NCBI GenBank assembly: GCA_028283825.1
Contig: JAPWJW010000001.1
Location: 1,302,001 to 1,366,000, forward strand
Reading direction: 5' to 3'
Length of the DNA stretch: 64,000 bases
From: Azospirillaceae bacterium
GTDB taxonomy: Bacteria > Pseudomonadota > Alphaproteobacteria > Azospirillales > Azospirillaceae
Shown here: positions 16,170 to 57,379 of the stretch, piece after piece
Numbering within the stretch: the first letter of the stretch is position 1
Layout: every line of letters starts with the position of its first letter
Translations under genes and position numbers: made by a program
Notes under the pieces: model-generated
What the model saw: the letters and a program-made list of their open reading frames with translations, nothing else
Databases searched by the model: none
Told to the model about the DNA's origin: nothing

Positions 16170-16601
16170 ATGGCATCCCTGACACGGCCCCTGGCCACCA
16201 ACATCGCGGCCTACGCCACCAGTCTGGTGGTGTTCCTGGGCCTGGATGCGGTGTGGCTGACCCTGACGGCCGACATCTATCGCGGCACCCTGGGCGACAT
16301 GGTGGCGGGGCAGGCGCGGCTGGTGCCGGCGGTGCTGTTCTATCTGCTGGACGTGGCCGGCATCGTCTTCTTCTGCATCCGGCCCGCCCTGGCGCAGGCA
16401 TCCGGACGGGTGCGACCGGCGCTGGTGAAGGGCGCGTTGTTCGGTTTCTTCACCTATGCCACCTACGATTTGACCAACTATGCCACCCTGCGCATCTGGA
16501 CGGCCGGCATCACCGCGCTGGACATGGCCTGGGGCACGGCGCTGACCGCCGTCGCGGCGGGGGCGGGCTATCTGGCCGCGCGCCATATACGCGGCATTTG
16601 A
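16170..16601 (+). CDS. DUF2177 family membrane protein
   Basis: Inner-membrane protein of 143 residues with four hydrophobic segments. The N-terminal helix runs into the motif GLDAVWLTLTADIYRG, and later FGFFTYATYDLTNYATL is typical of DUF2177 (PF09945). Function unknown in the family. ATG 16170 is preceded by GGAAGGAGAG. The stop codon lies inside the left arm of a perfect 12-bp inverted repeat that begins dispersed repeat copy A. Confidence 0.85.
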   Translation: MASLTRPLATNIAAYATSLVVFLGLDAVWLTLTADIYRGTLGDMVAGQARLVPAVLFYLLDVAGIVFFCIRPALAQASGRVRPALVKGALFGFFTYATYDLTNYATLRIWTAGITALDMAWGTALTAVAAGAGYLAARHIRGI

Positions 16602-16754
16602 ACGGGGCCGTTCAAATGCGCCCTCAGGCGCCGGGCGCCAGCATCCGCTGGCTTGGCTGATCCTCGCTTTCCAGTCCGCCTCTGGCTCCCCGGAATGCTC
16701 CGGCGGACGCCGTCGCGTCCTACAGCGACACGAATCAAAACTTCGGGCCGCTGG
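16594..16754 (+). repeat. Dispersed structured repeat, copy A
   Basis: It begins with a perfect hairpin GCATTTGAACGG-GG-CCGTTCAAATGC (16594-16619). Then come CCCTCAGGCGCCGGGCG, hairpin 1 CCAGC-ATCC-GCTGG (16638-16651), the conserved CTTTCCAGTCCGC block, a small hairpin CCGGA-ATGC-TCCGG (16690-16703), hairpin 2 GGACGC-CGTC-GCGTCC (16705-16720) and a terminal CAGCG...CGCTGG stem to 16754. It fills the convergent gap between the DUF2177 gene and the lipoprotein gene and ends 3 bp from the latter's stop. Related copies lie at 24609-24758, 57249-57379 and, inverted, 29024-29145. Confidence 0.85.
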
Positions 16755-16756
16755 AT

Positions 16757-17242
16757 CTATTTCAGCAGGAAGCTGTAGGGCCGGCCGTTGGATGTGCGGT
16801 TGACGATCTGGCCCGGGGTATATTCGAAGGTGTCGTCCAGCAGGACGCGGGTGTAGACGGGCTTGCCCACCATGGCCAGCGGCGCCACGTCCGCCAGTTC
16901 GTAATGCAGGTGCACCTTGTTGCCGTCCATGACGGTGACCACGGTGACATCGCCGCCGAAGCAAACCTGGCCGTTGAACTTGGCGCGGACGTAATAGGTG
17001 TCGCGTCCGTCCATCAGCACGGATGATTCAATCCGGCGGATTTCCACCGGCGTCAGCGGTACCTCAAGCCGGTACATGGAAATGAGGTCGGTGCCGGTGG
17101 GGCGGCTGGTGTGCAGGGTCAGCGCGCAGGCCGCCTGCAACAGCTTCTGATCGGGGCCGGGGCCCGTCTCATCCCCGCCGCCGCAGCCGGCCAGGGCCAG
17201 GCCTGCCAGCAGCGCCATGCCCGCACTTTTCAGATACCGCAT
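16757..17242 (-). CDS. Putative lipoprotein, last gene of the rpoE-chrR transcript
   Basis: A 161-residue protein with a type II signal peptide: MRYLKSAGMALLAGLALAGC, lipobox LAGC with lipidated C20. The mature part is a compact mixed domain (LTPVEIRRIESSVLMDGRDT; YYVRAKFNGQVCFGGDVTVV) of unrecognised family. It lies 85 bp downstream of the DUF1295 gene on the same strand, so it may belong to the RpoE-ChrR operon. Repeat copy A begins 2 bp beyond its stop and could form the 3-prime end of its mRNA. Function unknown. Confidence 0.7.
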   Translation of the reverse strand: MRYLKSAGMALLAGLALAGCGGGDETGPGPDQKLLQAACALTLHTSRPTGTDLISMYRLEVPLTPVEIRRIESSVLMDGRDTYYVRAKFNGQVCFGGDVTVVTVMDGNKVHLHYELADVAPLAMVGKPVYTRVLLDDTFEYTPGQIVNRTSNGRPYSFLLK

Positions 17243-17327
17243 CCTGTCATCCCCCGCGCCATCGTCCACCCCAGCTATCGAATGGCCGCCGGCGCCGGTC
17301 AAGGACCATTGTGCTGGCCTTGGGAAG

Positions 17328-18134
17328 CTAACCCTTTGGCGGCAGGGGGAAGAAGGCGCTGGTCCGCCGTTGATAGTCGGCGAAGGCCGCCCCCCGGGAC
17401 CGCGCCATGTGCGCCTCCAGATGCGGGATGCCGGAGACATGGACCAGCAGCCAATACATGATCGCCGGCCCGCCGAACGCCAGCCAGCCCCAGGGCCACA
17501 CGCCGTCAGGACCCGGCGCCAGGGCGAAGCAGGGATAGGCCAGCCACCCCAGCCATTCGAAGAAATAGTTGGGATGGCGCGACCAGCGCCATAGGCCGGT
17601 GTCGCAGACCTTGCCATGGCCGCCCGTGCGGCGGAACCGCGCCAGTTGCGCATCCGCCAGCCCTTCGCCCAGCACGGCGGCCAGCAGGACCAGCGTGCCC
17701 AGGACATCCGGGATGCCCAGGCCGGGCGCCGGGTTGCGGGCGGCGAGATAGAGGGGGACCATCAGCAGGGCCGCCGCCACGGCTTGGGCTTGCAGAAACC
17801 AGAACATGCGGCGGGGGGCCGCGGCACCCCAGTCCTGGGTCAACTGCGCATAGCGGGGATCATCGCCGGCGCCCCGTGTGCGCAAGGCGATGTGCGTTCC
17901 CAGCCGCGCCGACCACAGGAAGATCAGCGTGCCCACCAGCACCTGGCGCGGGCTGGCGGCATCCTGTCCATTCAGCGGGACCAGGGCCACCGCCACCCCG
18001 CCCAACCCCATGGCGAAGGACCAGCAGGTGTCCACCCAGCCCGATGCCCGTGTCGCCTGTTGCAGGCCCCAGGCCAGCGCCATGGCGGCGCTCAAGGCCG
18101 CCGCGACGATGATGCCCAGCGCCGCGATGCCCAT
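17328..18134 (-). CDS. DUF1295 family membrane protein (steroid 5-alpha-reductase-like)
   Basis: Integral membrane protein of 268 residues with about six hydrophobic helices. The C-terminal signature GLWRWSRHPNYFFEWLGW and HVSGIPHLEAHMARSRG is that of DUF1295 proteins, related to steroid 5-alpha-reductases and isoprenylcysteine methyltransferases (NADPH- or SAM-dependent enzymes acting on lipids). It starts 4 bp after the chrR stop, so it is in the sigma-factor operon. DUF1295 genes commonly accompany CFA-synthase-like genes in RpoE/ChrR regulons, which suggests a role in modifying membrane fatty acids. Its actual reaction is not known. Confidence 0.85.
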   Translation of the reverse strand: MGIAALGIIVAAALSAAMALAWGLQQATRASGWVDTCWSFAMGLGGVAVALVPLNGQDAASPRQVLVGTLIFLWSARLGTHIALRTRGAGDDPRYAQLTQDWGAAAPRRMFWFLQAQAVAAALLMVPLYLAARNPAPGLGIPDVLGTLVLLAAVLGEGLADAQLARFRRTGGHGKVCDTGLWRWSRHPNYFFEWLGWLAYPCFALAPGPDGVWPWGWLAFGGPAIMYWLLVHVSGIPHLEAHMARSRGAAFADYQRRTSAFFPLPPKG

Positions 18135-18138
18135 GGCG

Positions 18139-18795
18139 CTACAACCCGACCAGGGGCTGGACCAGGCGGCCCAGCAGGCCGTGGATGCGCAGGCGGCCGC
18201 GCACGGCGATCAGGCAGAGGCAGTCGCCGTCCTGCCGGCCGACGGTGGGTTCATGGTCCACGCCCGCGTCCAGCTCCACCATGTCGCCGGGACCGAAGCG
18301 GCCCAGGCTGTCGCTGAAGGCGCCCTGGATGACACAGGTGTATTCCAACCCGCGATGGCCGTGCAGGGGGATGGCCATGCCCGGTTTCACCCGGAACAGC
18401 ATGACCTTGTAGCCCTGGCGGGGGTCCACCCGCACGGCGCGGCCCCGGATGCCGGGCGCCACCAGGCGCCAGGGGCCCAGGTGCCGATGGCGCAGGGTGG
18501 CGGGAAGCGTGGGGTCGGCATCCGGGACGGACGCGGTGCCGGTTTCCCCCGCCAGCTTCTCCAGTGTGCGCTCCAGCGCGTCCGGCGCCATGGCGGCGGG
18601 GGGCAGGGTGTCCAGCAGGGCGCCGCCCAGCGCCTCCAGCCCTTGCGCCCGGCGGCGGCATAGGGGGCAGAAGTCCAGGTGCGTGGCCACGACCAGGGCA
18701 GGGCCGTCGTCCAGCGTGCCGGCGGCATGGCGCGCCAGCAGGTCGCCGCCGGGATGATGGGTGGGCAATTGATGGATGGGGCTCATGTCAGACAT
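18139..18795 (-). CDS. chrR: ChrR-type zinc anti-sigma factor
   Basis: Cytosolic anti-sigma factor of 218 residues that binds the RpoE encoded just upstream. The N-terminal zinc anti-sigma domain carries the His/Cys set in HHPGGDLLARHAAG and HLDFCPLCRRR. The C-terminal cupin domain (HGHRGLEYTCVIQGAFSD; ELDAGVDHEP) is the ChrR domain needed, in Rhodobacter sphaeroides, for release of sigma-E by singlet oxygen. The start overlaps the rpoE stop by 8 bp (ATG 18795; ATG 18786 is an alternative), ensuring coupled translation. Confidence 0.92.
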   Translation of the reverse strand: MSDMSPIHQLPTHHPGGDLLARHAAGTLDDGPALVVATHLDFCPLCRRRAQGLEALGGALLDTLPPAAMAPDALERTLEKLAGETGTASVPDADPTLPATLRHRHLGPWRLVAPGIRGRAVRVDPRQGYKVMLFRVKPGMAIPLHGHRGLEYTCVIQGAFSDSLGRFGPGDMVELDAGVDHEPTVGRQDGDCLCLIAVRGRLRIHGLLGRLVQPLVGL

Positions 18796-19330
18796 CGTCG
18801 ATCAGCCCGCGCAGACGGTTCATGGCCAGGCGTAGGCGCGACTTCACGGTGCCGAGCGGAATGCCCAGGCGCTGGGCGATATCGGGATGGGGCGCATCCT
18901 CGAAGAAGGACAGGCGCACCACCGCCAACTGGTCTGGCGGCAGGCTGTCCAGGGTGGCGCGCAGACGCCCCGCCAGTTCGGCCGCACCGACGATGGTGTC
19001 GGCCTGTTCCGGTTCCGGGGGAAGCAGCGGTTCCTGCGCCACCGCCTTGTCGCCGGCCCGATCGCGGCGCAGGGCATCGACACGCAGGTTGCGGGCGATG
19101 GTGAAGATCCAGGTGCTGGCGGCGGCGCGGGCCGGGTCGAAGAAGGCGGCCTTGCGCCAGACGGTCAGCATCGCCTCCTGCGCCAGTTCCTCCGCCACCA
19201 TCGGCGGCACGCCGCTGCCGGCCAGATAGCTTTTGATGCGGGGGGCGAAATGCCGGAACAGGGCGGCGAAGGCGGCGCGGTCACCCTGGGTGGCGATGGC
19301 CAGCAGGTGCCGGGCGTGTATGTCCGTCAC
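18788..19330 (-). CDS. rpoE: ECF sigma factor RpoE (ChrR-regulated group)
   Basis: RNA polymerase sigma factor of about 180 residues. Sigma region 2 is in DRAAFAALFRHFAPRIKSYL through STWIFTIARNLRVDALRRD. Region 4 is in LDSLPPDQLAVVRLSFFED and IAQRLGIPLGTVKSRLRLAM. The frame is open to ATG 19489. I place the start at GTG 19330, because this gives the normal family N-terminus and because the likely sigma-E promoter (-10 at 19502-19495) would put the transcript start at about 19489, too late for the upstream ATG; GTG 19375 is also possible. It probably activates its own operon and the divergent DUF1365-CFA genes. Confidence 0.92.
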   Translation of the reverse strand: MTDIHARHLLAIATQGDRAAFAALFRHFAPRIKSYLAGSGVPPMVAEELAQEAMLTVWRKAAFFDPARAAASTWIFTIARNLRVDALRRDRAGDKAVAQEPLLPPEPEQADTIVGAAELAGRLRATLDSLPPDQLAVVRLSFFEDAPHPDIAQRLGIPLGTVKSRLRLAMNRLRGLIDDV

Positions 19331-19494
19331 CCCCAATCGCGCCGCCGGCCCAGGTTCCGTGCCCTCAACCGTCACTGACGCGGCCCCGACAACCGTTCCG
19401 ACAAGAGACCATGCACCACCCGGCGCGCCCGGCGTGCGGGCGCCGGCGTGGCGTCTGTCAAAGGGGCGTGGGCGAAGGGTGTCATGCATGCCAT

Positions 19495-19523
19495 CCTATA
19501 CGAACCACGGCTGGATCGGATCA
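19495..19523 (-). promoter_or_regulatory. RpoE-type promoter of the rpoE-chrR operon
   Basis: Minus strand: TGATCC (19523-19518), 15-bp spacer, CGTATAGG (19502-19495). It has the same -35 and -10 words as the divergent promoter at 19539-19568, and TGATCC is the known -35 of Rhodobacter sphaeroides RpoE promoters. Confidence 0.75.
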
Positions 19524-19538
19524 CCCGTCCCGCGTGAC

Positions 19539-19568
19539 TGATCCGATATTCACCTTGGGTCGTATAGG
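19539..19568 (+). promoter_or_regulatory. RpoE-type promoter of the DUF1365-CFA synthase operon
   Basis: TGATCC (19539-19544), 16-bp spacer, CGTATAGG (19561-19568), 30 bp before the DUF1365 start. It mirrors the rpoE promoter on the other strand. Confidence 0.75.
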
Positions 19569-19598
19569 GGTCGAAAGCGTCAACGGGACGGCAGGGCC

Positions 19599-20462
19599 AT
19601 GAAAATTCCCCGTGGGGACAGGGCTGGGCGGGACGATACGGCCGACGGCTTGCGCAGCGCCATCTACCGGGGGGCGGTCGTCCACCATCGCACCTGGCCG
19701 CGCCGCCACCATCTGCGTTATCGCCTGTGGACGCTGCTGCTGGACCTGGATGAGGTGCCGGCGCTGCATCGGCACCTGCGCTGCTTCTCCCATAACCGTT
19801 TCAACCTGCTGTCCTTTCATGATGCCGACCATGGCGACGGATCGGGGCGGCCGCTGGGTGACCAGGTCGCGCGGCTGCTGGCCGATGCCCGGGTCGACTA
19901 TGACGGCGGCTCCATCCGGTTGTGGTGCATGCCCCGGGTGCTGGGGCACGTGTTCAACCCGCTGAGCGTCTATTTCTGCCACCGCCGCGACGGCATGCTG
20001 TGCGCCCTGGTGCATGAGGTGAACAACACCTTCGGTCAGCGCCACAGCTATGTGGTGCCGGTGCCGGACGGCACGCCGCCGGACGCGGTGCTGCGCCAGC
20101 ACTGCGCCAAGCGGTTCCATGTCTCCCCCTTCCTCGACATGGACATGAGTTACGATTTTCGCGTGGCGCCGCCAGGGGATGGCATGACCGTCGCCATCCA
20201 GGCGCGGGCGCCGGACCGGGCGGCGGCGGTGCTGTCCGCCAGCTTCATCGGCCGCCGCCACGCCCTGACGGATACGGAACTGGTGTCCGCCTGGATGGCG
20301 CACCCCCTGCTGACGCTGAAGGTCGTGGCCGCCATCCATTGGGAGGCCCTGCGGCTGTTGCTGAAGGGCGTCGGCTTCCGCCGTAGCCCACCGCCGCCGG
20401 CCAGGGCCTACACCCTGGGTGACCCGGTGCCGGGCTCCGCTCCCGCCGAAACCCGCCTTTAA
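19599..20462 (+). CDS. DUF1365 family protein
   Basis: Protein of 287 residues with the DUF1365 pattern: AIYRGAVVHHRTWPRRH at the N-terminus, a conserved FSHNRFNLLSF, then MPRVLGHVFNPLSVYFCH and VHEVNNTFGQRHSY. No enzyme activity is established for the family, but it almost always sits next to CFA-synthase-like methyltransferases, as here (15 bp upstream of the next gene). Transcription from the RpoE-type promoter at 19539-19568 would tie it to singlet-oxygen or membrane-oxidation stress. Confidence 0.9.
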   Translation: MKIPRGDRAGRDDTADGLRSAIYRGAVVHHRTWPRRHHLRYRLWTLLLDLDEVPALHRHLRCFSHNRFNLLSFHDADHGDGSGRPLGDQVARLLADARVDYDGGSIRLWCMPRVLGHVFNPLSVYFCHRRDGMLCALVHEVNNTFGQRHSYVVPVPDGTPPDAVLRQHCAKRFHVSPFLDMDMSYDFRVAPPGDGMTVAIQARAPDRAAAVLSASFIGRRHALTDTELVSAWMAHPLLTLKVVAAIHWEALRLLLKGVGFRRSPPPPARAYTLGDPVPGSAPAETRL

Positions 20463-20477
20463 GGAATCCGCACCGCC

Positions 20478-21695
20478 ATGCCCCTCGACGCGCCCGCCCT
20501 TGAGCCGCAGCCCCGCCCCGCCACCGGTTTGGCCGGCGCCTTGCTGTCGCGTCTGATGGCGGCGCTGGCGGTGGGCCGGGTGACGGTGATCCTGCCGGAC
20601 GGCCGCACCCTGTCGCACCAGGCGGCGCAACCGGGGCCGGCGGGCACGCTGGTGCTGCACCGCTGGCGGGCGCTGGGCCGCATGGTGACCGGCGGCGACA
20701 TCGCCTTCGCGGAGGCCTACGCCGATGGCGACTGGTCCAGCCCCGACCTGCCGGCCCTGCTGGAACTGGCGGCCCGCAACATCGCCGCGTTGGACGACGC
20801 CATGGCCGGCCTGGCGCCGGCCCGTCTGCTCAACCGCCTGTTCCACTGGCGGCGGCCCAATTCCCGGGGCGGCAGCCGGCGCAACATCATGGCGCACTAC
20901 GATCTGGGCAACGCCTTCTACGCCCGCTGGCTGGACCGGGGCATGAGTTATTCCTCCGCCCTTTACACCGGTGCCGACCAGACGCTGGAGGCGGCGCAGG
21001 AGGCCAAGCTGGACCGTGTCGTAGACCTGCTGGACCTGGCCGGCGCCGACCGGGTGCTGGAGATCGGCTGCGGCTGGGGCGCGTTGGCGGAGCGCATGGC
21101 GCGCCAAGGCTGCCACGTCACCGGCCTGACCTTGTCGCCGGCCCAACTGGCGGCGGCGCAGGATCGGCTGATCGACGCCGACCTGGGCGGTCGGGCCGAT
21201 TTACGATTGCAGGATTATCGCGATATCACAGGCACTTACGACCGCATCGTCTCCATCGAGATGCTGGAGGCGGTGGGCGAGCGTTACTGGCCCGCCTATT
21301 TCCGCACCCTGCGCGGGCGCCTGGCCCACGACGGCGTCGCCGTGCTGCAGGTCATCACCATCGACGAGGCGCGCTTCGACCGGTATCGGCGCGAGGTGGA
21401 CTTCATCCAGCGCCATGTCTTTCCCGGCGGCATGCTGCCGTCGCCCACGCGCCTGGCGCAGGAGGCTGCGGCCGCCGGCCTGCGGGTGCAGTCGGCGATG
21501 ACCTTCGGCGACAGCTACGCCCGCACCCTGGCGGAATGGCGCCGTCGCTTCCACGACGCCTGGGACGACATCCAGGCCATGGGATTTCCGCCCCGTTTTC
21601 GGCAATTATGGGACTATTATCTGGCGTATTGCGAAGCGGGCTTCCGCGCCGGCCTGATCGACGTCGGCCTCTATCGCCTGGTGCCCGCCGTTTAG
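20478..21695 (+). CDS. cfa: Cyclopropane-fatty-acyl-phospholipid synthase family methyltransferase
   Basis: SAM-dependent enzyme of 405 residues acting on unsaturated acyl chains of membrane phospholipids. The SAM-binding motif VLEIGCGWGALAERMA is at about 193-208. Downstream are the CFA hallmarks VSIEMLEAVGERYWPAYF and DFIQRHVFPGGMLPS. The N-terminal domain (about 1-130) matches the lipid-binding part of CFA synthases. In RpoE/ChrR regulons such enzymes make cyclopropane or methylated/furan fatty-acid precursors; which one applies here cannot be told from sequence. It is second in the RpoE-driven operon with DUF1365. Confidence 0.92.
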   Translation: MPLDAPALEPQPRPATGLAGALLSRLMAALAVGRVTVILPDGRTLSHQAAQPGPAGTLVLHRWRALGRMVTGGDIAFAEAYADGDWSSPDLPALLELAARNIAALDDAMAGLAPARLLNRLFHWRRPNSRGGSRRNIMAHYDLGNAFYARWLDRGMSYSSALYTGADQTLEAAQEAKLDRVVDLLDLAGADRVLEIGCGWGALAERMARQGCHVTGLTLSPAQLAAAQDRLIDADLGGRADLRLQDYRDITGTYDRIVSIEMLEAVGERYWPAYFRTLRGRLAHDGVAVLQVITIDEARFDRYRREVDFIQRHVFPGGMLPSPTRLAQEAAAAGLRVQSAMTFGDSYARTLAEWRRRFHDAWDDIQAMGFPPRFRQLWDYYLAYCEAGFRAGLIDVGLYRLVPAV

Positions 21696-21710
21696 CTAAT
21701 TCGGACGGAA

Positions 21711-21724
21711 CTGATCCGGATCAA
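21711..21724. promoter_or_regulatory. FNR/CRP-family box
   Basis: CTGAT-CCGG-ATCAA matches the FNR/FixK consensus TTGAT-N4-ATCAA with one mismatch, 59 bp before the TauE/SafE start at 21783. Such exporters often travel with low-oxygen cytochrome oxidase genes, so anaerobic activation is plausible. Confidence 0.55.
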
Positions 21725-21782
21725 GTGATGCGGCCGGCACATCGTTTATGGATGGGGCGTGAACGCAGCCGGACATCGCGCC

Positions 21783-22553
21783 ATGCATGACCACCTGACC
21801 CTGATGCAATCCTCCCCCCTCAGCCTGCCGGCCTTGATGGCGGCGCTGTTCATGGCCGGGCTGACGGGCGGCTTCGGCCATTGCGTGGGCATGTGCGGCC
21901 CCTTCGTGCTGGCCCAGGTCGGCGCGGGCAAGGACGGGGGACCGTCCCTGGTGCGGGCCGGCGGCGCCCTGCTGCTGCCCTATCATCTGGGCCGGCTGAC
22001 GACCTATTCAGCACTGGGCGCGGTGGCCGGCGGGCTGTCGGGCCTGATGGTGCAGGTGCCGGCCTACCGCTGGCTGCTGGCGGCCTTCCTGGCCATCGCG
22101 GCCTTGCTGTTCCTGCGCCAGGGGTTGGCGGGGCTGGGGCGCATGGCGCCGCGCCTGGTGCACTGGCTGCCCAGCGGCCGGTTCAGCCTGGCCACCCGGG
22201 GGGCGGCGCGGCTGATGGGGGCGCTGTCCCGGCCCCTGCGCCCCCTGTTCGCCAATCCGCGCGGTCTCAACGGTTATTTCCTGGGCGTGCTGCTGGGCTT
22301 CATCCCCTGCGGCATGGTCTACGCCGCCCTGGCGGGGGCGGTGGGCAGCGGCTCGGCCCCGGCGGGCGCCCTGGCGCTGGTGGCCTTCGGACTGGGCACC
22401 GTGCCCAGCCTGCTGACGGTGGCCGTGGCCGGCCGGGCGGTGGGGCGGCAGTTCGCGGACCTTGCCGCCTGGGTGACGCCGCCCCTGATGCTGATCAACG
22501 CGGCCCTGTTGCTCAGCCTGGCCTTCGGCGTGCTGGACAAGACACCGGTCTAA
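21783..22553 (+). CDS. Sulfite exporter TauE/SafE-family (UreH-domain) membrane protein
   Basis: Polytopic inner-membrane protein of 256 residues with about six hydrophobic helices in two halves. The motif GLTGGFGHCVGMCGPFVLAQ in the first helices and the second-half counterpart YFLGVLLGFIPCGMVYAAL mark the TauE/SafE group with paired Cys/Met residues. Members of this branch are linked to cytochrome cbb3 oxidase or copper handling, though substrates are mostly untested. ATG 21783 is chosen because the FNR-like box would place the transcript start shortly before it; GTG 21759 is possible. The stop is 1 bp from the convergent hydrolase stop. Confidence 0.85.
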   Translation: MHDHLTLMQSSPLSLPALMAALFMAGLTGGFGHCVGMCGPFVLAQVGAGKDGGPSLVRAGGALLLPYHLGRLTTYSALGAVAGGLSGLMVQVPAYRWLLAAFLAIAALLFLRQGLAGLGRMAPRLVHWLPSGRFSLATRGAARLMGALSRPLRPLFANPRGLNGYFLGVLLGFIPCGMVYAALAGAVGSGSAPAGALALVAFGLGTVPSLLTVAVAGRAVGRQFADLAAWVTPPLMLINAALLLSLAFGVLDKTPV

Positions 22554-22554
22554 C

Positions 22555-23296
22555 TCACGCGCTGCACAGCGCGCGGGCGCGGTCGATGGCCGCCAGCACC
22601 GCCTTGCGTTGAGTCCAGGGCAGGAAGTGGCCGGCCCCCGCCAGCGTCCGCACCTCCACCGTGGCGCCGGTCAAATGGCGGCGCAGGTAATCGACGTTGC
22701 CATAGGGCGATTCCCGGTCGGCGGTGCCGTGCAGGATGACGACGGGGCAGCGCAGCTGGGGCAGGTCGCGGGCAAGCGCGCGCAACTCCGGCGCTATGGT
22801 CAGCAGTTCGCGGTTGGCGTTGCGCAAGGGGCGGGGCAACAGGCGGCGCCAGGGCTCCCGGTCCGCCCAGGGCTGCAAGGGGTGCTGGTGTTCCAGGCCC
22901 GGATCGAAGGACGTCGCCACCAGCACCAGGGCCGCCACCCGCGCCGGCTGGTCCAGCGCCAGGCGCGCCACCACCGGGGCCGCCCATGGAATGGCCCACC
23001 AGGATGGCCGGCGGGTTGGCGGGGTTCAGCGACAGCAGCGGTGCCAGGCGCCCGGCCTGGGCCCTCAACCCCACCAGCGCCTCGGCCGGCGGGCTGTGAC
23101 CGAAGCCCGGCCGGTCGGGCGACAGCAGCGACAGCCCAGGCGGGCCGTGGCGCAGGAACCAGCGCCAGCCCTTGGCGCTGCCCGGCGTGCCGTGCACCAT
23201 GATCACCGGCCGTGCCGCCTGTTCCACCGGGTCGGGACCTGCGGCCAGCACGCTGAGGCCGTGGCCTCCCACCGTCAGGCGGCGCACGCCATTCAT
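22555..23296 (-). pseudogene. Alpha/beta hydrolase, interrupted by a one-base frameshift
   Basis: The gene begins at ATG 23296, overlapping the upstream GNAT-like gene by ATGA. The N-terminal half has HGTPG (oxyanion region, 35-39), SPDRPGFGHS and the nucleophile elbow VGHSMGG with S103. Just after this, at the G run 22976-22979, the frame shifts. The rest (VARLALDQPARVAALVLVATS through VVILHGTADRESPYGN and GAGHFLPW, with acid Asp and catalytic His) continues in another frame to 22555. Removing one base restores a single frame of about 246 residues. It is either a recent inactivation or a sequencing error in a homopolymer; all catalytic residues remain. Confidence 0.85.
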
Positions 23297-24504: not shown

Positions 24505-24608
24505 CACGCTGCCCATTCCGGTCGGCACCCAGGCTAATAGTCGGGTGCCGGCCGGTGTTTAACAAGGGGTGTGGCCAAAGGGGGCCGCTGTCGCGACCTT
24601 ATACGCGC

Positions 24609-24758
24609 GGCCTTTGATCGTGACCGACCAAAGGCCCCCTCAGGCGCCGGGCGCCAGCATCCGCTGGCTTGGCTATCCTCGTTCTGCCCTGCGGTGCTCA
24701 CTCCGGGGCTGGCGGTCGCCAGCCTCCAGCGACACGAGTCAACGTTTCGTGCCGCTGG
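24609..24758 (+). repeat. Dispersed structured repeat, copy B
   Basis: The leading hairpin is GGCCTTTGATCG-TGAC-CGACCAAAGGCC (24609-24636). CCCTCAGGCGCC follows, then hairpin 1 CCAGC-ATCC-GCTGG (24654-24667), hairpin 2 GCTGGCG-GT-CGCCAGC (24708-24723) and a terminal CCAGCG...CGCTGG stem enclosing CACGA/TCGTG (to 24758). The block CTTTCCAGTCCGC of the other copies has diverged here. It ends 11 bp from the stop codon of the RidA-family gene. Confidence 0.85.
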
Positions 24759-24768
24759 TATTAAGCCC

Positions 24769-25236
24769 TTACACCACTTCCAGAATGGCCTCGACCTCAA
24801 CGGCCACGCCCAGCGGCAATGCTGCGGCGCTGACGGCGGAGCGGGCGTGGCGGCCGGCGTCGCCGAACACCTGGACGAAGGTTTCGGACGCGCCGTTGAT
24901 CACCTTGGGCTGGTCGGTGAAGTCGCCGGTGGAATTGACGAAGCCCACCAGCTTGACCACGCGCACCACGCGGTCCAGGTCGCCGCCCAGGGCCGCCTTG
25001 GCCTGGGCGATCAGGTTCAGGGCGCACAGGCGGGCCGCTTCCACGCCCTGTTCCACCGTGAAGGTGTCGCCCAGCTTGCCGACGCAGCGCAGCTCACCAT
25101 TCCAGAACGGCACCTGGCCGGACAGGAACAGGGTGTTGCCGGTCTGCACGGCCGGGACGTAGGCCGCCACCGGGATGGCCGGGGTCGGCAGCTCGATGGC
25201 GAGTTCTTTCAGACGGGCGTCGATACGGCCGGCCAT
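24769..25236 (-). CDS. RidA family protein (YjgF/YER057c/UK114)
   Basis: Cytosolic trimeric enzyme of 155 residues; RidA proteins hydrolyse reactive enamine/imine intermediates such as 2-aminoacrylate. This longer form matches the RidA subgroup with VQTGNTLFLSGQVPFWNGEL, the glycine-rich core GDLDRVVRVVKLVGFVNS, and HARSAVSAAALPLGVAVEVE at the C-terminus. In the last stretch the usual catalytic Arg is present (ARSAV). GGAGGAAACC precedes ATG 25236. It lies 25 bp after the PAP2 gene on the same strand, so it may share its transcript. Repeat copy B follows its stop. Confidence 0.9.
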   Translation of the reverse strand: MAGRIDARLKELAIELPTPAIPVAAYVPAVQTGNTLFLSGQVPFWNGELRCVGKLGDTFTVEQGVEAARLCALNLIAQAKAALGGDLDRVVRVVKLVGFVNSTGDFTDQPKVINGASETFVQVFGDAGRHARSAVSAAALPLGVAVEVEAILEVV

Positions 25237-25261
25237 GGTTTCCTCCTGGGTTGGGTCAATG

Positions 25262-29023: not shown

Positions 29024-29145
29024 GAACGGCCGCTGTCCCATGCCGTTCAGGCCCCGACCGGGGCCGCCGAAGATTTACGGGGAGCCGAAGGCGGACTGGA
29101 AATCGAGGACAAGGCAAGGGCCCGGATGGGCCCGCCCGCCGTTTG
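29024..29145 (-). repeat. Dispersed structured repeat, copy D (inverted)
   Basis: Reading the minus strand: hairpin 1 GGGCCC-ATCC-GGGCCC (29133-29118), TCCTCGATTTCCAGTCCGCC, hairpin 2 GGCCCC-GGTC-GGGGCC (29065-29050), then a terminal stem GAACGGC...GCCGTTC (29048-29024). The stems differ in sequence from copies A-C but stay paired, and the ATCC and GGTC loops are kept. It occupies most of the 297-bp gap between the GT2 and nicotinamidase genes, just beyond the nicotinamidase stop. Confidence 0.8.
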
Positions 29146-29153
29146 AGGGAACA

Positions 29154-29789
29154 CTAAAATGCCAGAACGTCCGCCAGGCTGATGCCTTTGACACCCGCGG
29201 CCGTCCAGTCGCGGCGGGCGGCGGCCAGTGAACCGTGCAGGTCGATGGCGCGGCAGGCCTCTTCCACAATGAACGCCTCGAACCCCAGCCGGGCGGCGTC
29301 GGTGGCGGAATAGGCGACGCAATAGTCGGTGGCGAGGCCAGCCAGGAACACGCGCCGCACCCCCCGCTCGCGCAAGGCCCCGGCCAGACCGGTGGCCGTC
29401 ACCTTGTCGTTCTCAAAAAAAGCGGAATAGCTGTCGATGGCGGGGCGGAAGCCCTTGCGGATCACCAGTTGCGCGCTTTGCAGCGCCGGCGCCAGGCCGG
29501 CATGGAACGCGGCGCCGGCCGTTCCCTGAACGCAATGATCCGGCCACAGCACCTGCGGGCCGTAGGGCATCTGTGTCATGTCGAAGGGCAGTTTGCCCGC
29601 GTGCGCGCTGGCGAAGGAGGTATGGCCGGCCGGATGCCAGTCCTGCGTCAGGACGACGGTGCCGAATTGGGGCGCCAGCGCGTTGGCGGGCGCCACCACC
29701 GCGTCGCCATCGGCCACGGCAAGGGCGCCGCCCGGACAGAAGTCGTTCTGGATGTCGATCAGGATCAGGGCATCGGTATCGGCGGGCAT
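29154..29789 (-). CDS. pncA: Nicotinamidase / pyrazinamidase
   Basis: Cytosolic hydrolase of 211 residues converting nicotinamide to nicotinate for NAD salvage. The catalytic triad D12 (LILIDIQNDF), K112 (VIRKGF) and C157 (GLATDYCVAY) is present, with metal ligands D50, H52 (TQDWHPAGH) and H85 (WPDHCVQGT). Length and motif order match PncA of other proteobacteria. Single gene; the promoter must lie in the 140 bp shared with the rne terminator. The stop is followed at once by repeat copy D. Confidence 0.94.
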   Translation of the reverse strand: MPADTDALILIDIQNDFCPGGALAVADGDAVVAPANALAPQFGTVVLTQDWHPAGHTSFASAHAGKLPFDMTQMPYGPQVLWPDHCVQGTAGAAFHAGLAPALQSAQLVIRKGFRPAIDSYSAFFENDKVTATGLAGALRERGVRRVFLAGLATDYCVAYSATDAARLGFEAFIVEEACRAIDLHGSLAAARRDWTAAGVKGISLADVLAF

Positions 29790-45951: not shown

Positions 45952-45960
45952 CGGCGAGAC

Positions 45961-47160: not shown

Positions 47161-47274
47161 GGTCGGCGGCGATCCCTGGTTGGGTTCGTTTGTCTGATTT
47201 GTCGTTGACCCAGCATGCCCGCCCGTCACGCCTCCGGCCAATTGAAAGTGCGTCAACTCAATGATTGATCCGGC

Positions 47275-48237: not shown

Positions 48238-48240
48238 GGT

Positions 48241-48257
48241 TTTGCTAATAAGGCAAA
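48241..48257. promoter_or_regulatory. LysR-type T-N11-A box
   Basis: TTTGC-TAATAAG-GCAAA has perfect 5-bp arms and the T-N11-A spacing of LysR sites. It lies in an AT-rich patch (48238-48300) just outside the lysR start codon, suiting autorepression; the operon promoter would be to its right. Confidence 0.6.
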
Positions 48258-48467
48258 TTTATAAAAACATAAATGTAAAAACTTTCCCCTCTGAATTCGA
48301 CCTCGTCATACTGCGTTCACATTCCAGACCGGGCGGGGTGCGGTGGCGGGCAGCCACCAGACGCGGGGTCGGAATGGAACGGCGACGGGCGACAAGCCTC
48401 GCGCCACCTCGGGGGAGGAGCCGCCGACCGGGCAAGTGTCGGGCGCAAAAAAAGCATCGGGGGCTCC

Positions 48468-51413: not shown

Positions 51414-51439
51414 TGCGGTTGGGTGGGGAGAAAGCACCG

Positions 51440-52525
51440 ATGAACGTCGCCCGTGTCGCCTTGGCCGCCGCACTCGCCTGTTGGCTGGGGGCGGCGGCGC
51501 CCGCCACCGCTGCGGAACCGGCTTCGGAAAAGGTCCGCGTCTATTTCGACAACGATTTCCTGGGGCCGGGCCAAAGCAACATCCAGGCGATGATTCCCCT
51601 GCTGCGCGACCCCCGGGTCGAGCTGCTGGGGGTGGGCGTGGTCACCGGTGACGCCTGGATGCAGGAGGAAACGCAGCACCTGCTGCGTTTCCTGGAGATC
51701 GTCGGGCGGCCGGAGGTTCCGGTCGCCAAGGGGGCGGAGATGCCCCTGATCCGCACCCAAGGTGAGATGCGGGCGTGGGAACAGCGCTATGGTGCGGTTC
51801 CCTGGAAGGGCGCCTGGAACCCGGTGCGTCCCGGCCGCACCTACCACCCCGATGATCCAGCACTGGTACCGCCGATGCCGGAGGGAGAGCCGCGCATCAC
51901 GGCGGTGGCGGAGGATGCGGCCCACCTGCTGATCCGGCTGGTGCGCGCCCATCCGGGGGAAATCACGGTCATCACCGCCGGCCCCCTGACCAACATCGCC
52001 CTGGCCGTGCGCCTGGCGCCCGACCTGCCGTCCCTGGCCAAGGAGATCGTGATTGAGGGCGGCGGGCTGGACATGGCGGTGGCCCGCGTCACCGGCAACA
52101 CCGACTACGCCACCGACTTCAACTTCCTGTTCGATCCGGAGGCGGCGCACATCGTGCTGACCGCGCCCTGGAAGCGCATCACCCTGCTGGGCAACGTCAC
52201 CGGCAGCGTGAAGGTGACGCCGGAGTTGGTGGCCCAGGTCGCCAGTGCCGGTACGCCCCTGGCCCGCTATTTCCATGACTACGCCAAGGTCGGCCAGCCC
52301 CTGTGGGATGAGATGACCACCGCCGTCGCCATCGACCGGTCGCTGGCGACCGAGGAACTGGTGGCGCGCATGGATGTCGACCTGCTGCCGGGGCCGGACT
52401 ACGGCAACGCCCAGATCTGGAAGGACGAGTTCGCGCCCCACCAGGGAGAGCAGACCGTGCACGTGGTGCAGAAGGTGGACATTCCCCGCTTCCTGGCGAC
52501 CTTCACGGCGGAGGCCCGCAAATGA
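51440..52525 (+). CDS. Secreted nucleoside hydrolase family protein with altered metal loop
   Basis: Periplasmic protein of 361 residues with signal peptide MNVARVALAAALACWLGAAA (cleavage near ATAA/EP). The IUNH core is recognisable: VITAGPLTNIALAVRLAPDL, NTDYATDFNFLFDPEAA and the C-terminal Asp region LWDEMTTAVAID. The N-terminal Ca-binding loop, normally DxDxGxDD, reads DNDFLGPGQSN (37-47), so the DD pair is replaced. It could still split purine nucleosides to base and ribose, or bind without catalysis. ATG 51440 has GGGGAG upstream; ATG 51413 overlaps the receptor stop. The next gene overlaps by 4 bp. Confidence 0.88.
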   Translation: MNVARVALAAALACWLGAAAPATAAEPASEKVRVYFDNDFLGPGQSNIQAMIPLLRDPRVELLGVGVVTGDAWMQEETQHLLRFLEIVGRPEVPVAKGAEMPLIRTQGEMRAWEQRYGAVPWKGAWNPVRPGRTYHPDDPALVPPMPEGEPRITAVAEDAAHLLIRLVRAHPGEITVITAGPLTNIALAVRLAPDLPSLAKEIVIEGGGLDMAVARVTGNTDYATDFNFLFDPEAAHIVLTAPWKRITLLGNVTGSVKVTPELVAQVASAGTPLARYFHDYAKVGQPLWDEMTTAVAIDRSLATEELVARMDVDLLPGPDYGNAQIWKDEFAPHQGEQTVHVVQKVDIPRFLATFTAEARK

Positions 52526-53841
52526 AGGCGCTGCTCGACCGCCGTTTTCGCCTGGCGGAGCGCGGCACCAGCGTGGGGCGCGAGGGCGTGGCCGGCCTGA
52601 CCTCCTTCATGGCGGCGGCCTACCTGATCGTGGTGATCCCGGCCCTGCTGTCCAGCGGCGGCATGGATCGCGGGGCCGCCACCGCCGCCGCCATCGTCAT
52701 CATGGCGGTGGGCAGCCTGTTCATGGGCCTTTACGGCAACCTGCCTTTCATCGTCGGGCCAGGCCTCGGCGGTTCCGCCATCCTGGGCGTCACCCTGGCG
52801 CAGACGGAGCATATCCCCTGGCCGGTGGGGCTGGGCATCGCCCTGCTGTCGGGCGTGCTGTTCCTGGTGCTGACCGTCACGGGTGCCCGCAGCCTGGTGA
52901 TGCGGCTGGTGCCCCCGCCCATTAAGCTGGGGCTGGGCGCCTCATTGGGCCTGTTCATCGCCCTGCTGGGCTGTCGTGATGCCGGCATGGTGGCGCTGAA
53001 CACCAGAAGCGTCTCACTGGCCTTGGGCGATTTCAGCCAGCCCGGCCCCATCGTCACCCTGATCGGCCTGGGCGTGGCGGTGGCCTTGCAGGCGCGCAAG
53101 GTACCGGGCGCCATGCTGGCCGGCATCGCGGTGGCGACGCTGGCGGGCATCCCGCTGGGCCTGACCGTGCTGCCGTCGTCCCTCTTTTCATTGCCGCATT
53201 CGGTCCAGCCCATCTCCTTCCAGGTGGATCTGGCCGGCGCCTTCTCGTTGGCCGCCTTGCCTTATCTGTTCGCCTTTTTCGCGGGGGAGTTCTTTTCCAC
53301 CCTGGGCACCACGCTGGCCGTGGGCGCCAAGGCCTCGCTGACGGATGAGCACGGCAATCTGCCGGGCATCGAACGGCCCTTCCTGGTGGATTCGGTGATG
53401 GCCACCATTGGGCCGCTGATCGGCATCCCATCCGGCACGGCGCTGGTGGAATCCGCCGCCGGGGTGGAGGCGGGCGGGCGCACCGGCCTGACCGCGTCGG
53501 CCGCCGCCCTGTGCTTCCTGGCCACCTTGCTGATCACGCCGCTGGTGATGGCCGTACCCCGGCAGGCGACGGCGCCGGCGCTGATCCTGACCGGCCTATC
53601 CATGTTCAGCACCATCCGCCACCTGGTGGCGGAGGAGGTGGCCGACCTGCTGCCGACCCTGGTGATGGTGCTGGTCACCCTGGTGGCCAACAATTTCGGC
53701 ACCGGCATCGCCGCCGGCATCCTGGCCTATGTGCTGGTCCAGCTTCTCGCCGGACGGATACGCCGGGTCCCTGTCGGCCTTCTCATCCTGTCCATACCGC
53801 TCGGCTACTACTTCTATGTCGCCGCCACACGGCCGCACTAA
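52522..53841 (+). CDS. NCS2-family (AzgA-type) purine permease
   Basis: Inner-membrane proton symporter of 439 residues with 12-14 hydrophobic helices. The AzgA branch is shown by REGVAGLTSFMAAAYLIVVIP at the start, then GNLPFIVGPGLGGSAILG, PPPIKLGLGASLGLFIALLG, FFSTLGTTLAVGAKASLTDE and IPSGTALVESAAGVEAGGRT. Relatives carry adenine, guanine or hypoxanthine. The ATG overlaps the nucleoside hydrolase stop (ATGA). Logical role: import of the base released in the periplasm. Confidence 0.93.
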   Translation: MKALLDRRFRLAERGTSVGREGVAGLTSFMAAAYLIVVIPALLSSGGMDRGAATAAAIVIMAVGSLFMGLYGNLPFIVGPGLGGSAILGVTLAQTEHIPWPVGLGIALLSGVLFLVLTVTGARSLVMRLVPPPIKLGLGASLGLFIALLGCRDAGMVALNTRSVSLALGDFSQPGPIVTLIGLGVAVALQARKVPGAMLAGIAVATLAGIPLGLTVLPSSLFSLPHSVQPISFQVDLAGAFSLAALPYLFAFFAGEFFSTLGTTLAVGAKASLTDEHGNLPGIERPFLVDSVMATIGPLIGIPSGTALVESAAGVEAGGRTGLTASAAALCFLATLLITPLVMAVPRQATAPALILTGLSMFSTIRHLVAEEVADLLPTLVMVLVTLVANNFGTGIAAGILAYVLVQLLAGRIRRVPVGLLILSIPLGYYFYVAATRPH

Positions 53842-53871
53842 GCCGCCGTCGCCGCTGATCACAGGCCTTTG

Positions 53872-54996
53872 ATGATGATTCCCATTGCAGACACGCTTGC
53901 GACGGTGCCGCCGTCGCAAACCGGACGGACCGTCACCCGGGCGCAGCGTGCCTTCTTCCGCGCCATGCCCAAGGTGGAATTGCACTGCCACCTGCTGGGG
54001 GCGGTGCGGCCGCAGACCTTCGCCGACCTGGCGGCCAAACACGGCGCGCCGGTGACCGGGGCGGAGATCGACGGGTTCTACCGGCGCGGCGCCAAGCCGG
54101 TGGGGGTGCTGCACGTGCTGCGCGCCCTGGAAAGCCACCTGCTGCTGGAACCTGACGATTTCCGCCGCATCGCCTATGAATACCTGGCGGACGCGGCGGC
54201 GGAGAACGTGCGCCATGCGGAGTTCTTCTGGAACCCCACGGCCACCCTGCGCGACACGGACCTGCGCTACCCCGACATCCAGGTGGCCCTGGTGGCCGGC
54301 ATTGAGCAGGCGGCCGCCGACCACGGCATCAGCGGCCTGCTGATCCCCTCCATCGACCGGGAGGCCGATCCGAGGGCGGCGGTGGAGATGGTGGAGTTGA
54401 TGGCCGCCAGCCGCCACCCCCTGGTCCCCGGCATCGGCATCGACTATCGCGAGACCGAACGCCCGCCGGAGATGTTCGCCGACGCCTACGCCCTGGCCCG
54501 CCGGCATGGCCTGCGCCTGACCGCGCACGCCGGCGAATTCGGCACGTCCTGGCGCAATGTGGAAACCGTGGTGGAGCGCCTGGGCGTGGACCGGGTGGAC
54601 CATGGCTACAGCATCGTCGACAACCCCGACCGCCTGCGCGACTACGCGGCGCGCGGCCTGGTGTTCACCGTGGTGCCGACCAATTCCTATTACCTGCGCA
54701 CCTTGCCGCCGGAGCGCTGGGCGGCCGACCACCCCATCCGCCGCATGGCCGCACTGGGCCTGGCCATCCACCCCAACACCGACGATCCCACCCTGCACCG
54801 GGTCAGCCCGGCCGGCGCCTGGGAACTGATGTACAGCCATCTGGGCTTCGACATCGCCGACCTGCGCGCCATGATGTTGGCCGGCATCGACGGCAGTTGG
54901 GCGGGTGCCGAACAGCAGGCCGCCTGGCGCGCGGAATGGCCGGCGATCTTCGATACCCTGTCCGCCGGCCTGGGGTGGGAGCCCTCGGCCCTATGA
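53872..54996 (+). CDS. add: Adenosine deaminase
   Basis: Cytosolic Zn enzyme of 374 residues, deaminating adenosine (or adenine in close relatives) to the hypoxanthine form. Zn and catalytic motifs: H38/H40 in ELHCHLLGAVRPQT, HAGEFG, VDHGYS, and HPNTDDPTLHRV. PTNSYYL replaces the common PxSN motif, so the exact substrate may differ from E. coli Add. Two or three start codons cluster at 53869-53877; ATG 53872 is used. It follows the permease by 30 bp and overlaps the next start. Confidence 0.92.
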   Translation: MMIPIADTLATVPPSQTGRTVTRAQRAFFRAMPKVELHCHLLGAVRPQTFADLAAKHGAPVTGAEIDGFYRRGAKPVGVLHVLRALESHLLLEPDDFRRIAYEYLADAAAENVRHAEFFWNPTATLRDTDLRYPDIQVALVAGIEQAAADHGISGLLIPSIDREADPRAAVEMVELMAASRHPLVPGIGIDYRETERPPEMFADAYALARRHGLRLTAHAGEFGTSWRNVETVVERLGVDRVDHGYSIVDNPDRLRDYAARGLVFTVVPTNSYYLRTLPPERWAADHPIRRMAALGLAIHPNTDDPTLHRVSPAGAWELMYSHLGFDIADLRAMMLAGIDGSWAGAEQQAAWRAEWPAIFDTLSAGLGWEPSAL

Positions 54997-56309
54997 GCGC
55001 CACCGCCGACGTCATCCGCCTTAGCCGCGCGGCGGCGGCCAACATCCCGGCGGAAACCGCGGCCATGGTCCGGCGCTGCGTCCTGGACTGGTTTGGTCTC
55101 GCCATCGCCGGTGCCGATGAGCCGGTGTGCCGCCTGCTTCGCCCCCTGGCCCTGGCGGAGGGCGCCCGCCCGGTGGCAACCCTGATCGGCACGGGTGAGG
55201 GCGTCAGCGCCCGCCAGGCTGCCTTCCTGAACGCCGTGGTCGGCCATGCGCTGGACTACGACGACGTGGCGCTGGTCATGCACGTCCATCCCACCACCGT
55301 GATCCTGCCGCCGCTGCTGGCCCTGGCGGAGGAACGGGGCCTGGGCGGCCGGGCGGTGATCGCGGCCTTCGTCGCGGGGTATGAGGCCGCCGGCATGATC
55401 GGCCGCTGGCTGGGCGCCGGGCCCTATGACCGGGGTTTCCACATGACCGGCACCCTGGGCGCGCTTGGCGCCGCCGCCGCCTGCGCCCACCTGCTGGGCT
55501 TGGATGAGGAGGCGACGGCGCGTGCCTACGGCCTGGCGGCGTCGCAGGCGGCCGGGCTGAAGGCGCAGTTCGGCACCATGGCCAAGCCCGTCCATGCCGG
55601 CCGCGCGGCGGAGGCGGGGCTGACCGCCGCCCTATGGGCGGAAGCCGGCGTCACCAGCCGCACCGATATCCTGGAGGCCCGCCAGGGCTACGCCGCCACC
55701 CAATCGGCCATCCCCACCGGCCCCATTCTCTGGGACGGCCATGAGGTGGACCGCAATTCCTTCAAGTACCACGCTTCCTGTTTCGGGACCCATGGCGCCA
55801 TCGAGGCGATCCGGACCTTGCGGGCCGGCGGGGTGGAACCGGGGATGGTCACGCACCTGGATGTGATCGTGGATGCCGGCGCCGACCGGATGTGCAACAT
55901 CGCCGCTCCCCGCACGGGCACGGAGGCGAAGTTCAGCCTGCGGTTCGTCGCGGCCCTGGCCCTGTCGGGGGCCGACACCGCCATGCCCGGGCTGTACACC
56001 GACGCGGCGACGGCCCGGCCGGACCTGGTCGCCCTGCGCGACCGGGTGGCGGTCGGTTTCGGCCCGGCGGATTGGCCGCCCGACCTGACGGAGGTGGCGG
56101 TGACCTTGGCCGACGGATCGCGGCGGTCCGCCCGGTGTGACACCAGCCTGATCCAGGCCGACGATGCCCGGCTGCGGGCCAAGTTCCATCACCTGGCGGC
56201 CCTGCTATCGGGGGACGGCGCGCGCCATCTCGCCGGGCGTGTCGATCAATTTGAAGCCGAAGACGATATCGGCGCGCTGTGCCGCCTGGCCGTGGCGGTG
56301 CGGGGCTGA
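54993..56309 (+). CDS. MmgE/PrpD family protein
   Basis: Cytosolic protein of 438 residues in the 2-methylcitrate dehydratase/cis-aconitate decarboxylase family (PF03972). Characteristic pieces are RCVLDWFGLAIAGADEPV, NAVVGHALDYDDVALVMHVH, GFHMTGTLGALGAAAACAHL, FGTMAKPVHAGRAAEAGL and KYHASCFGTHGAIEAI. It has no obvious place in known purine salvage. Overlapping the adenosine deaminase stop by ATGA, it is nevertheless the last gene of that operon. It may dehydrate or decarboxylate a product of the imported compound. Confidence 0.88.
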   Translation: MSATADVIRLSRAAAANIPAETAAMVRRCVLDWFGLAIAGADEPVCRLLRPLALAEGARPVATLIGTGEGVSARQAAFLNAVVGHALDYDDVALVMHVHPTTVILPPLLALAEERGLGGRAVIAAFVAGYEAAGMIGRWLGAGPYDRGFHMTGTLGALGAAAACAHLLGLDEEATARAYGLAASQAAGLKAQFGTMAKPVHAGRAAEAGLTAALWAEAGVTSRTDILEARQGYAATQSAIPTGPILWDGHEVDRNSFKYHASCFGTHGAIEAIRTLRAGGVEPGMVTHLDVIVDAGADRMCNIAAPRTGTEAKFSLRFVAALALSGADTAMPGLYTDAATARPDLVALRDRVAVGFGPADWPPDLTEVAVTLADGSRRSARCDTSLIQADDARLRAKFHHLAALLSGDGARHLAGRVDQFEAEDDIGALCRLAVAVRG

Positions 56310-56330
56310 ACCCCCGCACCGGACGGCACG

Positions 56331-57002
56331 TCAGTCCCGCGTATAACCCCACACCGCCGCCGGCGGGATGTTGGACACTGCCCAGCCCAGGCGCTTGCCG
56401 GCCAGTTGCAGGGCCTGGCGGCGCAGGGGGGAGCGCAAGGAATAGGTGAAGGCCAGGAACTGCCTGCCTTCCGGCATGACGGCGTAGGCCTCATCCATGA
56501 TCAGGCGCTGGGCCTCCATCGGGATCAGGATCATGGGGATGCCGCAGACGATGGTGCCCACCTTGCCCACCCATTGCGGCGGCAGCAGGGTGCGCACGTC
56601 CTTCACGTCGCCGCGCAGGACGGTGACGCCGGGGAACTTGGCCGTCATGTAGGCGTGCAGTTCCCGGTCCCGCTCGATCACGAACAGGCGCGACGCCGGG
56701 ATGCCGGATTCCAGCAGGGCGCGGGTGATGGCGCCGGTGCCGCCGCCGTATTCCACGACGATCTCATCCGCCTCGCGCCGCACGTGGCGGCCCATCAGCC
56801 GGCCCAGCGCCGGGCCGGACGGGGTGATGGAGGCGATGGAGACGGGGTTGGCGGCCCAGCGGCGGAAGAACAGCCAGGCAGGATTCTCGTTCGCCGGGCT
56901 GTGCGGCCGGGGGCCGTGTCCGCGGGGATGGTTTCCCTTGGCGGTTCCCTTGCCGGCGAAGTCCTTGCCGTTCAGGGTCGTCTCGGCGCGATCAATGGGC
57001 AT
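56331..57002 (-). CDS. SAM-dependent methyltransferase (PmtA/rRNA-dimethylase-like)
   Basis: Cytosolic class I methyltransferase of 223 residues. The basic, Pro/His-rich first 40 residues are unusual. The SAM-binding motif VVEYGGGTGAITRALLESG is followed by FVIERDRELH and VLRGDVKD. NPVSIASITPSGPALGRLM before it is typical of the alphaproteobacterial phospholipid N-methyltransferase-like group (phosphatidylethanolamine methylation) or KsgA-like proteins. Substrate is inferred. Convergent with the PrpD gene, gap 21 bp. Confidence 0.82.
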   Translation of the reverse strand: MPIDRAETTLNGKDFAGKGTAKGNHPRGHGPRPHSPANENPAWLFFRRWAANPVSIASITPSGPALGRLMGRHVRREADEIVVEYGGGTGAITRALLESGIPASRLFVIERDRELHAYMTAKFPGVTVLRGDVKDVRTLLPPQWVGKVGTIVCGIPMILIPMEAQRLIMDEAYAVMPEGRQFLAFTYSLRSPLRRQALQLAGKRLGWAVSNIPPAAVWGYTRD

Positions 57003-57248
57003 AGGTCAGGCGTTCCCCAGCATCGGCATTCCAGCAATGGCCGGCCCGCGTACGGGCGTGCGGCGCATCAGGTCGGTGACTAAGGGGCATCGGGCCCCCG
57101 AAACACTAAGGGTGCGGGCACGGAACATAGGGGCAGAGATGGCATGGGCCGTCCGGATTTGCAATGACGGCTGTGTTACATCCCCGTTTCGCTTAGGCAA
57201 TTTCGGATTAGTCAGTGCGACGAAGAGTGTCACCCTGGGGTTCATCCG

Positions 57249-57379
57249 CCCTCAGTCGCCGGGCGCCGACATCCGTCGGCTTTGCTCATCCTCGCTTTCC
57301 AGTCCGCTACACTCCCCGGAAAGCTCCGGCGGCCCCGTCGGGGCCTACGGCGGCACGAGACAGGGTCTCGCGCCGTCGG
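57249..57379 (+). repeat. Dispersed structured repeat, copy C
   Basis: CCCTCAGTCGCCGGGCG is followed by hairpin 1 CCGAC-ATCC-GTCGG (57266-57279), CTTTCCAGTCCGC, the small hairpin CCGGA-AAGC-TCCGG (57316-57329) and hairpin 2 GGCCCC-GTC-GGGGCC (57331-57345). A terminal stem CGGCG...CGCCG encloses CGAGAC-AGG-GTCTCG, ending near 57379, seven bases from the ABC-F stop. Stem bases differ from copies A and B in compensating pairs. The leading hairpin of A and B is absent or decayed. Confidence 0.85.

Follow-up and report, generated by a model that had tools for sequence, protein, structure and literature searches.

A 2003 paper by Chen and Shapiro reportedly deals with CIRs, the Caulobacter CcrM-associated repeats. 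A review describes these as repeats of roughly 110 bp that lie between genes of Alphaproteobacteria and have hairpin arms (PMC2229807). Pneumococcal BOX, RUP and SPRITE elements are presented as modular folded repeats which are over-represented between convergent genes and sometimes supply stop codons (PMC3049150). REP/BIME sequences, numerous palindromes lying between genes and close to gene ends, are moved by RAYT (Y1) transposases. MITEs of the IS1031 group of the IS5 family are short, encode no protein, have defined ends, lie mostly between genes and carry a 3-bp TNA duplication, and a preference for TNA with a 3-bp repeat is attributed to the IS1031 group in the consulted part of PMC12016507.

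We identified a repeat of approximately 130-170 bp containing no protein gene that combines features of these systems and for which a new MITE-like family is the best reading. It resembles CIRs as an alphaproteobacterial intergenic repeat with hairpin arms but has more hairpins and no conserved GANTC, the comparison being with CIRs as described. The modular folded build, the excess between convergent genes and the contact with stop codons recall BOX, RUP and SPRITE, which however belong to an unrelated host group and for which the accessible part of PMC3049150 reports neither a TNA target nor stop-codon abutment. It differs from REP/BIME in the lack of RAYT from its genus, in its target duplication and in its longer ordered array. 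It differs from IS1031-group MITEs in its ends (TACC/TACG...), in the ordered array of covarying hairpins in its interior and in that a partner IS was not found. An Rfam search of the window returned nothing at the repeat and, at five loci searched at E <=5, no match at the repeat exceeded a family's cut-off, in keeping with the original prediction, which did not recognise a known REP, ERIC or Rickettsia-type element. A cobalamin riboswitch (window positions 13450-13699, minus strand, 87.8 bits) was detected elsewhere. We met no described family in the open-access literature searched; subscription papers fell outside that scope so an earlier description may exist.

The window, the 64,000-nucleotide stretch that was analysed (G000:C1:1302001-1366000), comes from a 7.16-Mb genome in five contigs which we take as Nitrospirillum, its ABC-F protein having 83-87% identity to five Nitrospirillum records and to Azospirillum sp. 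B4, and identity to those ranked next not exceeding 70%. The ABC-F protein of one record titled Mycobacterium sp. KBS0706 (L122, NZ_VCCH02000086.1) is as near to that of the window as the Inquilinus ones are, and its label may be wrong. The element consists, in order, of an optional 5′ hairpin P0, the motif CCCTCA, a short helix P1 (GCC/GGC) closing on P2, a P2 hairpin with a six-pair stem and an ATCC loop, a linker, a third hairpin P3 with a small apical stem, a P4 hairpin with a six-pair stem and an NGTC loop whose first base is G, A or C, and the long terminal hairpin P5. Copy A (16588-16753, plus strand) comprises P0 (16588-16620) and the P1-P5 core (16621-16753), with P2 at 16637-16652 (loop ATCC) and P4 at 16705-16720 (loop CGTC); the stop codon of a plus-strand gene (16599-16601) falls inside its P0 and that of a minus-strand gene lies at 16757-16759. 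Copy B (24602-24760, plus strand) has both ends (TACGCG...GCTGGTA), P0 at 24602-24636 and the core at 24637-24757, and is bracketed by a TTA target duplication at 24599-24601 and 24761-24763. Copy C (57249-57378, plus strand) and the inverted copy D (29024-29149, minus strand) are cores without P0, facing the minus-strand stop codons of the ABC-F gene (57386-57388) and of an isochorismatase-fold gene (29154-29156) respectively.

The four copies originally predicted are present at the places and in the orientations given for them, and the stems quoted for the ATCC-loop and GTC-type hairpins are correct, the ATCC hairpin being GCCAGC/GCTGGC in A and B, GCCGAC/GTCGGC in C and GGGCCC/GGGCCC in D. 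The shared order of hairpins likewise extends across the copies, with P0 confined to A and B and other sequence replacing the third hairpin of B (24680-24720), in which P2, P4 and P5 are retained; a similar replacement was seen in a copy (e3) of the congener G004. In window terms it also holds that each of the four follows the stop codon of a gene on the minus strand, but D is inverted and meets its gene with its other end. Pfam supports three of the named neighbours (RidA-like, isochorismatase-fold, which had been called nicotinamidase, and ABC-F), while the supposed lipoprotein gene beside copy A had no Pfam match. The bit scores against our covariance model R1 were 145.5 for A (16621-16753), 127.8 for C and 106 for D, all three of which were among its 32 training copies, and 88.9 for B, which was not. 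Taken alone copy D has no advantage in folding over its shuffled sequence, whichever strand is considered (z -0.90 and 0.21).

Compensating changes in the stems are real and abundant. We aligned 32 copies, 30 obtained by BLAST with copy A together with C and D, leaving out B on account of its replaced third hairpin. Pairing was found in 96.4% of 1089 cells (86.3% in shuffles), double changes in 21 of 37 pairs (9.5 in shuffles) and 92 cells were double-changed against 17.7 in shuffles; none of 500 shuffles reached the observed pairing and double-change values and the signal was lost when partners were slid. A pattern search of 1.2 Mb of the same genome, independent of the covariance model and demanding at least four of six P2 pairs, returned 121 copies of P2, 106 of them perfect, in 18 distinct sequences and 109 copies of P4, 91 of them perfect, in 11 distinct sequences, a further 27 of the 148 raw matches falling under the P2 limit and being left out as probably due to chance. 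Perfect stems are rarer in P0 (45/80) and P5 (68/127). In distant relatives the loops and the P2-P3-P4 order are constant and the stems are different.

Covariance-model searching identified many more copies in the genome and its relatives, in support of the original prediction. The genome itself holds at least 150 full-length matches to R1, and a contiguous unbiased 400 kb contained 19 matches, of which the 18 strong ones suggest approximately 320 copies per genome. Six further Nitrospirillum-type genomes have at least 105-109 matches each. Among 25 further named genomes, ten have weaker R1 matches. These are Azospirillum sp. TSH64 (3), A. melinis (3), A. oryzae COC8 (2), Azospirillum sp. TSO22-1 (2), Roseomonas CECT 9278 (36), Roseomonas HF4 (26), Magnetospirillum UT-4 (6), Rhodospirillales Ga0074136 (11), Siccirubricoccus (1) and Magnetovibrio (1). 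No match was found in the other 15, among which are two further Azospirillum genomes and the searched representatives of Acetobacter, Komagataeibacter, Inquilinus and Skermanella. A core model, R2, built from 20 distant copies also covaries (53 double-changed cells against 16 in shuffles), and at E <=1e-6 with strict filters it matched 19 of 289 sampled Alphaproteobacteria from 12 families, five of the 19 having supplied R2 training sequences. On PLSDB plasmids the Azospirillum type was found in 18 Azospirillum records and the Niveispirillum type in two Niveispirillum records, with no match to the Nitrospirillum type. We estimate that each genome of the nitrogen-fixing genus Nitrospirillum carries a few hundred copies of the family, which has relatives in Azospirillum, Niveispirillum, Roseomonas and Magnetospirillum. 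The original prediction had named a lack of further copies or of significant covariation as grounds for abandoning it, and at least 150 copies and strong covariation were found.

The repeat is a mobile element generating a 3-bp TNA target duplication, a property missing from the earlier reading. The flanks of window copies A-D are syntenic in the congeners G002, G003, G004 and G006, where the element is absent from all 16 of 16 sites, and in six congeners the region following the ABC-F gene lacks copy C. In 100 kb from each of G002, G003, G004 and G006 four copies were found in total, e1 and e2 representing one site common to G003 and G004 and e3 and e4 being present in G004 only. Azospirillum argentinense Az39 has a 156-bp insert at TCA, which is the mmsB stop codon, with TCA on both sides, and the site is empty in four other Azospirillum strains (taken from seven with two-piece matches); TCA is again duplicated in a comparison of A. 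brasilense MTCC4038 with TSH58. G045, a 77% complete MAG, carries near-identical copies, with nine of 13 stretches containing the core and eight both ends. Seven of these eight have identical TNA flanks (TAA three times, TTA three times, TCA once), the eighth being flanked by TAA and AAA. In the window's own genome eight of 45 copies, copy B among them with TTA, have identical flanking 3-mers and all eight are TNA (shuffle mean 2.4; 7 of 10,000 shuffles as high), the other 37 having no identical pair. Neither e3 nor e4 shows a clean duplication; at e4 CCTCAGG is retained in two species that are empty there and could be a remnant of loss. The element has discrete ends, TAC...GTA, with terminal inverted repeats that in G045 read TACCAGGTCTCGATGA and TACYAAGCCTCGATGA in pairs 146 bp apart and in Nitrospirillum are short and imperfect.

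Placement relative to genes was determined in 1.2 Mb of the genome, comprising 60 stretches of which 40 were picked for holding copies, using gene calls from a simple custom script. The best 150 of 165 matches were aligned, three duplicates were removed to leave 147 distinct copies, and removal of four edge copies left 143 with both neighbours known. Copies are intergenic, overlapping a gene by no more than 40 bp, in 144 of 147 cases, and for the majority a stop codon lies only tens of bases away. Their neighbours are convergent in 83 of 143, tandem in 52 and divergent in 8, compared with 69, 376 and 146 of 591 element-free gaps. Two sharp peaks were observed: the stop codon of the minus-strand gene begins exactly 3 nt past P5 in 15 of the 104 copies whose P5 end is intact, and the stop codon of the plus-strand gene ends exactly 7 nt ahead of the P0 stem in 15 of 57 copies with P0. 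As both TAA and TGA are TNA, the choice of target accounts for this exact abutment and provides a simple reason for harmless insertion of a mobile element precisely at stop codons. The TAG avoidance expected from a TNA target is not significant (2 of 30 abutting stops against 18 of 113), and copy A abuts a TAG stop. In tandem pairs the two orientations are about equally common (27 against 25), so there is no preference for host orientation, and gene-end location is explained by target choice together with tolerance of insertion there and not by any one gene orientation.

We consider it probable that the element is a non-autonomous MITE-like DNA transposon which is moved in trans by a transposase of IS1031-type target choice and whose hairpins are kept for its own spread. 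It inserts into TNA with duplication of the three bases, such that a jump into TAA or TGA (TTA or TCA for genes on the opposite strand) duplicates the stop codon and leaves the gene whole, and insertions at stop codons and between convergent genes would be the ones to survive. The target type is observed directly, and from it we infer a DDE transposase with IS1031-group target choice acting in trans. With less certainty, P0 and P2-P5 may fold on a single strand as RNA or single-stranded DNA, and the hairpins may serve the spread or tolerance of the element and not a particular host gene. A search by end motif, itself incomplete, found no partner IS with the ends of the repeat in 1.2 Mb of the genome or in the 77% complete G045. 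The genome does contain two IS1031-like ISs (L309, L315, L322; L329, L332, L336), so called from PF01609, a length of approximately 0.9 kb and TNA and not from an IS database, which are flanked by duplicated TTA, TAA, TCA and TGA within the context C-TNA-G. As direct parents these were rejected; the duplication is the same but the ends differ (GAGCC..., GAGGC... against TACC/TACG...).

The original prediction placed the fold in RNA or single-stranded DNA. The signal of folding points to the reverse of the strand read there. One-sided mismatches on that strand counted by copy are A-C in 66 cases and G-T in 25, and with each distinct stem counted once A-C in 57, G-T in 24 and other in 65 (p = 3e-4), the excess running in the same direction in P0, P2, P4 and P5. 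An A-C mismatch read on one strand corresponds to G-U on its complement, so that folding probably takes place on the reverse strand, for which we regard the evidence as moderate. In conserved unpaired columns, themselves constrained, C to T (1.75%) and A to G (6.1%) are commoner than G to A (0.58%) and T to C (0.61%); as this would yield G-T, mutation bias does not explain the excess of A-C. The reverse strand has the more stable predicted fold in 99 of 104 intact copies, partly due to base composition, and stable hairpins are predicted on both strands.

Stable hairpins on either strand and an intergenic position facing stop codons are also what would be expected of an element retained by selection at each site as a two-way terminator or protector of transcript 3′ ends, similar to the role proposed for some REP/BIME copies. 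We regard such a service to the host as distinctly improbable. The window copies have no counterpart at the matched sites of four congeners, tandem pairs show no orientation bias although one strand appears to be the folded one, and terminator-like sites beside copies are not depleted (convergent 16/127 against 21/281, tandem 4/37 against 37/563). Together this turnover of sites, the unbiased tandem orientation and the undepleted terminators do not favour a role for the neighbouring genes. Replacement of intrinsic terminators by copies was set aside on the same terminator counts. REP/BIME sequences mobilised by RAYT share the high copy number, the palindromes and the gene-end location but hardly merit belief here, with a target duplication present and PF01797 found in none of seven Nitrospirillum genomes, while that search detected it in 11 of 35 genomes; lack of a Y1 transposase contradicts this identity within the genus.

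A more serious alternative, though one we lean against, retains the MITE but attributes the matched stem changes to DNA processes, ectopic conversion or quasi-palindrome template switching, and not to selection on the fold. Linkage between the P2 type and the P4 type of a copy is weak (mutual information 1.151 against 1.034 when shuffled, with 32 of 1000 shuffles as high) and the commonest double change (88/218) is CG to GC, a double transversion, which together suggest that copies exchange sequence or that hairpins are rewritten as a whole. Double changes (10) exceed one-sided stem changes (7) even among the nine closest pairs, and a site common to G002, G004 and G000 has double changes in nearly every stem. 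These processes do not however predict tolerance of G-U on one strand (57 against 24) or frozen loops, and e1 and e2 share a rare P2 yet are separated by double changes in both P4 and P5. Selection, conversion and template switching remain mixed, the excess of G-U on one strand being the best sign of a real fold. The compensating changes originally described are upheld, but for selection on the fold of each resident copy inter-copy exchange is a live alternative. Matched-pair stem differences even at sites common to related species and the many natural replicates make this a good system for separating fold selection from conversion or template switching, and for testing whether movement of a mini-transposon needs a folded strand.

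Returning to the MITE-like transposon, its covarying interior hairpins are not needed by an ordinary MITE and count against a plain MITE reading. A bolder version, rather unlikely in our estimation, is that the reverse strand, as folded RNA or single-stranded DNA, takes part in the mobility of the element. The family would then be a TNA-targeting mini-transposon, common to several alphaproteobacterial families, that depends on a strand-specific array of hairpins with constant loops and freely rewritten stems. If so, a structured nucleic acid would assist the transposon, which would set it apart from ordinary MITEs.

Two sequence motifs within the repeat were also considered. GANTC is enriched in P5 (34/104; shuffle mean 12) and present anywhere in 48 of 147 copies but is not conserved, and identity with CIRs on this basis was rejected. 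The reverse-strand loops contain GGA, as a CsrA sponge would, but CsrA (PF02599) is found in none of seven Nitrospirillum genomes, and this reading was rejected; among 59 relatives three have CsrA, including G045, which does carry the repeat.

Some copies have other arrangements. What appears to be the shorter core type (72 nt) found in distant relatives is also present in the genome of the window, at L340 (G000:C1:213550-213621). In G045 (C2:2868-2909) two inverted element ends lie only 42 bp apart, resembling a P0 hairpin that stands by itself between element ends. On contig C1 of the window's genome (L292:8267-8601) three copies form a head-to-tail array in which the 104-bp inner units apparently lack P5.
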